NCBI RefSeq assembly: GCF_900167225.1
Contig: NZ_FUXH01000001.1
Coordinates: forward strand, 1 to 64,000
Source: Porphyromonas crevioricanis
GTDB lineage: Bacteria; Bacteroidota; Bacteroidia; Bacteroidales; Porphyromonadaceae
DNA: 64,000 nucleotides
Reading direction: 5' to 3'
Below the pieces are notes generated by a model, which saw nothing but the letters and a program-made list of their open reading frames with translations, was not told where the DNA came from and did not search any database. Shown here in pieces: positions 50,408-52,379 of the stretch; the first letter of the stretch is position 1; every line of letters starts with the position of its first letter. A program made the translations under genes and the position numbers.

Positions 50408-51136
50408 ATGCAGAAGAGTAATATCATTACAGCTGTCATCGTGGGGATTGCTTTTGTCGTTGGCCTCGGTGCTTTGGCTAATGGTGTAGGCAAGGTAAGA
50501 CGCTCTCCCGAGCCCCTTATCAATGTAACGGGGATGGCCGAACGCAATTTTACGAGTGATTTGGCTGTATGGAGTGCCAGATATGAAGTGATGAGGTTTG
50601 ATATGCAACAGGCATTTGCCGATCTTGCTGGAAAGAGAGCTCAGGTGAAGAAATTTCTCCAAAGCAAAGGTATAGCGGAGGATAAGGTCGAGTATAGCTC
50701 TGTGAGTATTGATCGGAGATACGACAAGGAGGGTTATTGTGATCAGAAAGTTTTTGTTGGCTTTGCTCTCTCTCAGAGTATCACTATTACGTCTAATAAT
50801 ATCGAAGAGGTGGAAAACCTCTCTCGCTCTATCACGGAGCTTATCAATGAGGGAGTTGAGATTTATTCCGAAAGTCCCCAATTCTACTACACCAAGCTCA
50901 ATCAGCTTAAAATAGAGATGCTCAAAGCAGCATCGGAAGATGCCTACAACAGGGCAGCTGTGGTAGCCGAGGGAGGCAAAGGATCTTTGGGTAAGTTGGT
51001 GAAGTCGGATGTGGGAGTATTCCAGATCGTGGGGCTTAACTCCAACGAAGATTACAGCTGGGGTGGCTCGTTCAATACATCAAGCAAGGAAAAGACGGCT
51101 TCGGTCACTGTCCGCTCTTCTTATAGAGTGAAATAA
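50408..51136 (+). CDS. SIMPL domain (DUF541) periplasmic protein
   Basis: A 242-residue protein with one N-terminal hydrophobic segment (IITAVIVGIAFVVGLGALANG) followed by a SIMPL/DUF541 domain: VTGMAERNFTSDLAVWSARY near residues 38-57, and YNRAAVVAEGGKGSLGKLVKSDVGVFQI near 180-205. SIMPL proteins such as BP26/Omp28 of Brucella form periplasmic channel-like oligomers of unclear role. It ends the porin-like operon, followed by a strong terminator. Confidence 0.88.
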   Translation: MQKSNIITAVIVGIAFVVGLGALANGVGKVRRSPEPLINVTGMAERNFTSDLAVWSARYEVMRFDMQQAFADLAGKRAQVKKFLQSKGIAEDKVEYSSVSIDRRYDKEGYCDQKVFVGFALSQSITITSNNIEEVENLSRSITELINEGVEIYSESPQFYYTKLNQLKIEMLKAASEDAYNRAAVVAEGGKGSLGKLVKSDVGVFQIVGLNSNEDYSWGGSFNTSSKEKTASVTVRSSYRVK

Positions 51137-51235: not shown

Positions 51236-51290
51236 AAAAAGAAAGTCACCCGATCTGGCAAACTCCAGATCGGGTGACTTTCTTTTTTTT
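51236..51290. terminator. Long bidirectional terminator
   Basis: A 23-bp perfect stem (51236-51258 with 51265-51287), loop CAAACT, A-run on the left and T-run on the right. It lies between convergent SIMPL and rubredoxin genes and can terminate both. Confidence 0.9.
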
Positions 51291-51304: not shown

Positions 51305-51469
51305 TTACCCTTTGTGAACTTCAAAATCGTCCTTGGTTGCACCACAAACTGGGCAAGACCAATCATCAGGAATATCTTCGAAAGCAGTACCCGGTGCTAT
51401 TCCTCCATCCGGATCCCCTACTGCAGGATCGTAAACCCAATCGCATAGTGTGCAAATGTACTTTCTCAT
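51305..51469 (-). CDS. Rubredoxin
   Basis: A 54-residue one-iron electron carrier. The Fe(Cys)4 site is formed by [12 protein letters not shown] (Cys6 and Cys9) and [12 protein letters not shown] (Cys39 and Cys42). The ATG at 51469 gives MRKYICTLC; the longer frame starting at 51550 begins inside the promoter and was rejected. In anaerobes rubredoxin commonly supplies electrons to oxygen or peroxide reductases such as rubrerythrin. Single gene with its own promoter. Confidence 0.96.
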
Positions 51470-51547
51470 TGCTGTTTCTAATTTTACTGTAAGTGATAAA
51501 TATGTAACTCCTAAAGGAAAATCAACCTGTCGGTCTTTTGCAGAACA

Positions 51548-51555
51548 CAAAGGTA
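51548..51555 (-). promoter_or_regulatory. -7 element of rubredoxin
   Basis: TACCTTTG on the minus strand, 78 bp before the rubredoxin ATG. It decides the start by excluding the frame that begins at 51550. Confidence 0.5.
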
Positions 51556-51606: not shown

Positions 51607-51635
51607 AAGCCCTGACCATCTGCCGGTCAGGGCTT
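51607..51635 (-). terminator. Terminator of the superoxide dismutase gene
   Basis: AAGCCCTGACC and GGTCAGGGCTT form an 11-bp perfect stem with a 7-nt loop; on the minus strand it is followed by ATTTTTT. Confidence 0.85.
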
Positions 51636-51645
51636 GAGGGAGTGT

Positions 51646-52296
51646 TTAGAGCTGATAACGAAGCTCTACCACTTGCCAATCTATAATTCGCCACACTTCA
51701 TCAAGATGCTTACCTCTGTCGTTGGTGTAATCCAAGTAGTAGGCATGTTCCCACAAGTCTATCCCCATGAGAGGCGTCAAACCTCTACGCACGGGGTTGT
51801 TTCCATTGGCCTCGGTTACAATTGAGAGGTTTCCTTTCTCGTCCGAAGAAAGCCAAGCCCATCCGGAGCCGAATACTCCCATGGCTGCCTGCTTAAACTC
51901 CTTTTGGAAGGCTTCGAAAGATCCCCACTGTGCTGTTATTCGTTCACCGAGTTTTCCTTGTGGCATACCTCCTCCTTTGGGAGAGAATTGCTCGAAGTAG
52001 AGGTTGTGATTAAGCAATTGCCCTGCATTGTCTGCAATGCTACCTGTTGCATATTTGGCTATCATCCGAACATCAGATACGGAAGCGAATGGAGTACCTT
52101 GGATCAGCTTGTTCAGCTTTTTGACATAGCCGGCAAGATGTTTGCCATGATGCAATTCCACAGTTTGTTTGCTGATTACCGGCTCCAACGCATCTGTTGC
52201 ATACGGCAATTTCATTAGTTGGAACTGAGCTGAAGCGGAGGAAAAGGAGGCCAGCACAAAGACTGTGGCCATGAGTAGGTGTTTTAGTCTATTCAT
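51646..52296 (-). CDS. Exported Fe/Mn superoxide dismutase
   Basis: Dismutes superoxide. The 216-residue protein has all metal ligands of the Fe/Mn family: His49 (ELHHGKH), His97 (LLNHNLYF), Asp180 and His184 (IDLWEHAYY). Gln93, four residues before His97, is the Fe-type or cambialistic arrangement. Unusually, residues 1-23 form a good Sec signal peptide (LLMATVFVLASFSSASA), so the enzyme should act in the periplasm or be secreted, unlike the cytosolic 191-residue Sod of P. gingivalis that I recall. Single gene with its own terminator. Function sure; location inferred. Confidence 0.93.
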   Translation of the reverse strand: MNRLKHLLMATVFVLASFSSASAQFQLMKLPYATDALEPVISKQTVELHHGKHLAGYVKKLNKLIQGTPFASVSDVRMIAKYATGSIADNAGQLLNHNLYFEQFSPKGGGMPQGKLGERITAQWGSFEAFQKEFKQAAMGVFGSGWAWLSSDEKGNLSIVTEANGNNPVRRGLTPLMGIDLWEHAYYLDYTNDRGKHLDEVWRIIDWQVVELRYQL

Positions 52297-52379
52297 TTAT
52301 GTATCAGTTAAGGTATTAGAAATATGATTCCAACACATTAACCGGAACGATGTGCAAAATGTTTAGCAAAGGCCTTTAT

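Follow-up and report, generated by a model that had tools for sequence, protein, structure and literature searches.

Sequence comparison makes it likely that the superoxide dismutase (SOD) gene at positions 51646-52296 of the window (the whole 64,000-nucleotide stretch of Porphyromonas crevioricanis DNA analysed here) encodes an export-only enzyme of the SodFM2 type, one of a pair, and that its single-gene Bacteroidales relatives use one gene with two starts to serve two compartments, the nested start having been lost beside a cytosolic copy. The anatomy of the sequences, the presence and absence of their parts, the tie to gene copy number and the initiation signature are established here. The features of the locus are as follows.

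51646..52296, minus strand: Fe/Mn superoxide dismutase gene, predicted to be exported; ATG start, 216 codons plus stop (open reading frame; PF00081 and PF02777; 1qnn the best solved relative)
52228..52296, minus strand: predicted signal peptide of signal peptidase I type, residues 1-23 (MNRLKHLLMATVFVLASFSSASA), from sequence and hydrophobicity rule
51649..52227, minus strand: predicted mature SOD, residues 24-216, with Gln24 first (Q-rule); Pfam match from residue 24
52228..52230, minus strand: GCT codon (Ala23) at the site of the relatives' internal ATG; ATG and A-rich upstream lost, A 0.05 in the preceding 20 nt
51607..51635, minus strand: terminator-like stem-loop of 12 pairs, 7 of them GC, with a T tail, immediately 3' of the stop codon; it divides the SOD gene from the downstream rubredoxin gene
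52297..52379, no strand: 83-nt gap between the SOD start region and the end of the upstream TonB-dependent receptor-like gene

A superoxide dismutase with a predicted signal peptide

Both SOD domains were found in the 216-residue protein, Sod_Fe_N at residues 24-105 (3.2e-26, 92 bits, cut-off 27) and Sod_Fe_C at residues 112-211 (1.6e-37, 128.1 bits, cut-off 20.9). Residues 26-214 align with the solved SOD 1qnn (E 3.2e-74), which, with 1uer, we take to be the P. gingivalis SOD, a cambialistic enzyme. The original prediction that all metal ligands are present was borne out by alignment with 1qnn and 40 rows of genus SODs: the four ligands, three His and one Asp, are the first His of HHGKH, the His of LLNHN, and the Asp and His of GIDLWEH. 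In the same 40-row alignment the Q of NAGQLLNHN is the SodFM2 water-ligand Gln of the N-terminal domain. The residue at D-2 is Gly, as in the P. gingivalis SOD.

Because the Pfam domains begin at residue 24, residues 1-23 lie outside the enzyme. They form a signal peptide, MNRLKHLLMATVFVLASFSSASA, with a basic n-region, a hydrophobic core and an AxA site, followed by Q at +1 (SASA|QFQ). Signal peptides were called by a hydrophobicity rule of our own together with reading of the sequence. The rule was passed by 0.4-0.5% of shuffled upstream sequences and by none of 81 cytosolic SOD genes, so the call is more than chance, and the clear signal peptide that had been claimed to precede the enzyme is upheld. 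The predicted cut, A23|Q24, agrees with the Bacteroidetes Q-rule and would leave 193 residues with Gln first. No lipobox for signal peptidase II was found, Cys being absent from the N-terminal region; there is no twin Arg in the signal peptide; and no C-terminal domain of T9SS cargo was seen, the protein ending 5 residues past the SOD domain.

Some processing other than signal peptidase I cleavage before Gln24 is improbable. The protein does have a single hydrophobic stretch, and the enzyme follows it directly without a linker. Against this, ASA|Q suits signal peptidase I and the Q-rule, reported for most signal peptidase I substrates of P. gingivalis in the accessible text of PMC5837995, and the A-Q site recurs in eight exported copies of the genus alignment (G002, G003, G006, G010, G012, G013, G016 and G019).

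A sigma-70 promoter scan of the gap 52297..52379 gave no useful match, and no terminator match lies inside it. Directly downstream of the SOD gene is a rubredoxin gene (51305-51550, minus strand), whose position behind the terminator-like hairpin counts against an operon with the SOD. On the far side of the rubredoxin gene lies a SIMPL/DUF541 protein gene (50408-51136, plus strand), at the end of which is a hairpin of 20 pairs with a T tail (51238-51285), stronger than any other terminator-like site found by the scan.

Predicted exported and cytosolic SODs in the genus group

The P. crevioricanis genome (2.05 Mb, 99.96% complete) contains exactly two SodFM genes (PF02777). The search for a second, cytosolic sod gene that had been proposed was run and found G000:C13, which lies on another contig and encodes 193 residues without a signal peptide. 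SodFM genes are present in 26/26 genomes of the genus group and in two copies in 14 (PF02777 counts). In 13 of these 14 the second copy has a signal peptide and accompanies a cytosolic copy (G006, G019 and G020 among them are less than 90% complete); G009 is the exception. Its second SodFM (L029, G009:C31) lacks a signal peptide, sits on a long branch near Bacteroides SODs and possibly came from outside the genus.

An exported SOD had been described as unusual for this genus. That view did not survive the count, as 13/26 genus-group genomes carry a copy predicted to be exported. The statement that the P. gingivalis SOD is cytosolic and lacks a signal peptide did hold: the P. gingivalis-type genome G005 has one SodFM gene (L011), cytosolic and without a signal peptide, and its protein reads identical to 1qnn. 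A predicted exported SodFM thus belongs to the normal repertoire of the genus group, P. gingivalis being among the members that lack it. Cu/Zn SOD (PF00080) was not found in any of the 26 genus-group genomes, and superoxide reductase was not found in the source genome.

A conserved operon at the exported loci of the genus was considered and rejected, since neighbours differ and no common operon emerged: thioredoxin lies near in G000, G003 and G006, FTHFS in G000, G006 and G011, and four others have a shared family (f3) nearby. Two SodFM genes adjacent on one contig were seen at L056/L263 (G420), L145 (G146), L154 (G334) and L080; the pair in G420 comprises one exported and one cytosolic gene by prediction.

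An internal ATG in single-gene relatives

Ten genomes of the sister genus were examined. In the single-copy genomes G027, G028, G029, G032, G033 and G035 a signal peptide or lipobox opens the gene and a linker follows; an ATG then stands exactly 26 codons ahead of the first His ligand, so that its Met matches the residue with which cytosolic SODs start. G034 has two genes, a lipoprotein copy lacking that Met and a cytosolic copy, and G026, G030 and G031 have one gene each without a signal peptide. A lipobox marks L134, L135, L138 and L139 of the sister genus as predicted lipoprotein SODs; among two-start leaders both lipoboxes and Q-rule sites occur. The two-start anatomy is also found in Dysgonomonas-, Parabacteroides- and Tannerella-like genomes with a single SodFM (Dysgonomonadaceae/Tannerellaceae-like).

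The nested start is absent from the P. crevioricanis gene, which has GCT at the ATG site, an A fraction of 0.05 in the 20 nt before it and a start-matrix score of -6.85. Its linker is lost altogether, and the presumed old start codon is now Ala23, the last residue of the signal peptide.

Bacteroides-type sod genes (L053, L055, L057, L059, L062, L064, L194, L231 and L232) have a conserved hydrophobic leader of 11-12 residues, MNTLLxSL-like, 5' of the usual start; it is too short for a normal signal peptide, and the upstream ATG scores as a start in several. This leader was kept out of the main claim, save for L057, which passed the rule.

The internal ATG follows gene copy number

SOD open reading frames were examined at loci entered with the copy number of their genome; 69 of the 161 pass the signal-peptide rule. 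Copy numbers are PF02777 counts; for G397, entered as single-copy, one search gives two. One set of 80 loci contributed 16 whose copy number was determined and which entered the analysis; L056 and L075 were added by another count, and 62 were left out.

Among the 69, an ATG 25 to 27 codons before the first His ligand is present in 33/37 single-copy and 1/32 multi-copy genes, fractions that are not prevalences, because loci beyond the genus and its sister genus are best matches or were picked mostly for long open frames. L075 (G421) and any SOD without the motif required by the regular expression were dropped before the 33/37 count, and 8 of the 33 come from named records of unknown completeness. 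Fisher's test, which ignores kinship, gives p = 4e-14. When kinship is taken into account support is weak: there are 6 independent pairs on supported branches, and copy number agrees with the ATG in a mean of 5.2 of them and runs against it in 0 (median p 0.06).

A looser window (-24 to -32) raises the counts to 34/37 single-copy against 8/32 multi-copy genes. Four of these multi-copy genes (G298, G148, G062 and G380) have an ATG that also scores as a start, and among multi-copy lipoprotein SODs there are some whose ATG at -30/-31 scores fairly well as a start. Single-copy genes with a signal peptide that lack the ATG at -26 are those of G121, G228, G353, G397 and G421 (L075); G353 has a scored ATG at -30.

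The internal ATG carries an initiation signature

According to the accessible text of PMC6847099, initiation in Bacteroidetes, which are without Shine-Dalgarno signals, is promoted by A at -3 and around -12/-13. In the two-start genes the A fraction in the 20 nt before the internal ATG is 0.55, against 0.31 in the gene body. The corresponding values are 0.50 and 0.29 for true cytosolic starts, and 0.35 and 0.30 for the aligned site of export-only genes. Two-start genes have A in 71-85% at positions -11 to -15, export-only genes in 29-46%; enrichment at -12/-13 is shared by internal ATGs and cytosolic starts and is absent from the aligned export-only sites and from 227 ordinary Met codons. At -3, A is found at 14/34 two-start internal ATGs against 52/81 cytosolic starts. 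The mean A-excess by family differs (Mann-Whitney p 0.006).

A start matrix, trained on cytosolic SOD genes that are kin to the tested genes and used without cross-validation, scored 31/34 internal ATGs, 29/34 signal-peptide ATGs and 10/35 export-only aligned sites above the 95th percentile of ordinary Met codons. Among export-only genes of the genus, L005 and L032 exceed this threshold at the aligned site despite having no ATG, and G207, the sole multi-copy gene with an ATG at -25 to -27, lacks the A-rich signature. Lys, Glu and Gln codons of the linker end in A in 70/77 cases in two-start genes and 35/60 in export-only genes, the gene bodies standing at 0.62 and 0.55.

We consider it rather probable that a nested-start sod supplies two compartments across several Bacteroidales families, with an A-rich ribosome landing site in its linker codons, and that in Porphyromonas the work came to be shared by two genes, with repeated loss of the nested start after a separate cytosolic copy had become available. 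In one-gene relatives a single mRNA would give two proteins, a secreted or lipidated form from the first ATG and a cytosolic form from the internal one; where a second cytosolic gene exists, the exported copy would do without the internal start.

Two other explanations bear on the same observations. The P. crevioricanis protein could be an ordinary exported paralogue without any two-start gene among its ancestors; in its relatives the Met at -26 would be an old N-terminus left after fusion to a signal peptide, and only the long form would be made. That this Met coincides with the first residue of cytosolic copies fits such a history. So does the finding that exported SodFMs without it are common in other Bacteroidales families, where they occur beside a cytosolic copy. 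A fossil Met, however, would not retain an A-rich initiation signature and A-ending codons upstream, and is at odds with retention in 33/37 single-copy against 1/32 multi-copy genes; if only the long form were made, single-copy genomes would be left without any cytosolic SodFM. We regard this explanation as unlikely.

Less likely still is that the relatives make the short cytosolic form only, the apparent signal peptide upstream being chance sequence that is never translated. Proteins like these are often annotated from the inner Met, and the Bacteroides leader, being too short for a normal signal peptide, would suit such a view. The rule, however, is passed by about 0.5% of shuffles and by all 34 selected upstream regions, a partly circular comparison as the set was selected by the rule, and the median open frame upstream is 44 residues against 7 in shuffles. 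Lipoboxes and Q-rule sites are present in these regions, and the upstream ATG has an A-rich signature of its own in 29/34, which argues that both starts are used.

Phylogeny of the exported copies

The cytosolic genus copies, L029 of G009 excepted, form one clade (98/91). The exported copies form no single supported clade, those of G003 and G006 grouping with two-start genes of the sister genus (98/87), so the history involves more than one simple split. In an earlier tree the exported copies lay on one side of a branch; a single exported clade for the genus is unsupported in the later tree, which was built without the near copies of G001, G021 and G024. Since the cytosolic and the exported copies belong to separate lineages that split deep in the tree, recent local duplication of a P. 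gingivalis-type gene was rejected. On this tree the nested start was probably lost more than once, or genes moved between lineages. One clean single case of Met loss is L134, the lipoprotein of G034, beside its near relative L135 of single-copy G035, which keeps the Met (100/99).

Metal use and likely role

The D-2 position tunes metal preference, the residues named in the accessible text of PMC10172142 being Gly, Ala, Thr and Val, and with Gly there, a residue shared with the cambialistic P. gingivalis enzyme, either Fe or Mn is predicted to serve. The P. crevioricanis SOD is therefore likely to be cambialistic, a property that would be useful where the cell cannot control the metal. Of the exported Fe-type SOD originally proposed, predicted export stands by virtue of the signal peptide, but 'Fe-type' is too narrow. 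One genus group (L004, L006, L007, L009 and L014) has Cys at D-2 (LMCFDVWEH).

Export and cleavage of the protein, its activity, metal and location, initiation at the internal ATG and the direction in which the genes changed are all inferred from these comparisons. The precursor would be exported through Sec, and signal peptidase I would cleave it after Ala23, leaving a Gln24 that would probably be cyclised to pyroglutamate; the mature SOD would be active with its metal in a compartment beyond the inner membrane, for which the periplasm is the likeliest candidate. Known pathways would account for each of these steps, from Sec export and cleavage to the formation of pyroglutamate and the loading of metal on the far side of that membrane. 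There the enzyme would clear superoxide out of reach of the cytosolic G000:C13 enzyme, and its removal of host superoxide in the periplasm is a reasonable supposition.

Discussion

Exported SodFMs and internal starts are each already known. The P. gingivalis SOD (1qnn/1uer) shares with the P. crevioricanis enzyme the SodFM2 fold family, ligands, N-terminal Gln and Gly at D-2, but has no signal peptide, is the single gene of G005 and falls in the cytosolic clade, apart from the exported copies. The SodFM2 enzymes of Sendra et al. 2023 (PMC10172142) likewise include Bacteroidales members with the N-terminal water-ligand Gln and Gly at D-2, and predicted targeting sequences were removed from some SodFMs before expression; the accessible text describes neither a two-start gene nor an exported Porphyromonas paralogue. 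Periplasmic Cu/Zn SOD (SodC, PF00080) also acts outside the inner membrane but has an unrelated fold; given its absence from 26/26 genus genomes, the exported SodFM may take the place of SodC.

The closest parallels for the arrangement come from other proteins. HBP35 of P. gingivalis is produced from one gene as a signal-peptide form and as shorter cytoplasmic forms from internal ATGs, as proven by mutation (accessible text of PMC2907840). PilB of Neisseria meningitidis, as told in the same source, has a secreted long form and a cytoplasmic form from an internal AUG. In HBP35, however, the internal starts drop the thioredoxin domain and the forms differ in function, whereas both SOD forms would be a complete enzyme; PilB is a multidomain Msr/thioredoxin protein of another phylum that also loses a domain in its short form. 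No report of a two-start or exported SOD in Bacteroidales was found in the open literature at the level of titles and abstracts.

Outer membrane vesicles of Tannerella forsythia contained SodF, a protein listed as cytoplasmic (accessible text of PMC4604654). SOD in such vesicles can stem from lysis. If the two-start reading is true, lysis need not be the source of SOD in fractions of vesicles or periplasm from Tannerella, Parabacteroides or Dysgonomonas, annotations beginning at the inner Met overlook the long form, and the Shine-Dalgarno-less initiation of the phylum can put a second start within a coding sequence. The series from a single two-start gene to separate genes would be natural material for a study of subfunctionalisation. 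Oxygen and neutrophils are close neighbours of the anaerobic Bacteroidales, and in half of the genus-group genomes the predicted exported SodFM would be an answer to extracytoplasmic superoxide.
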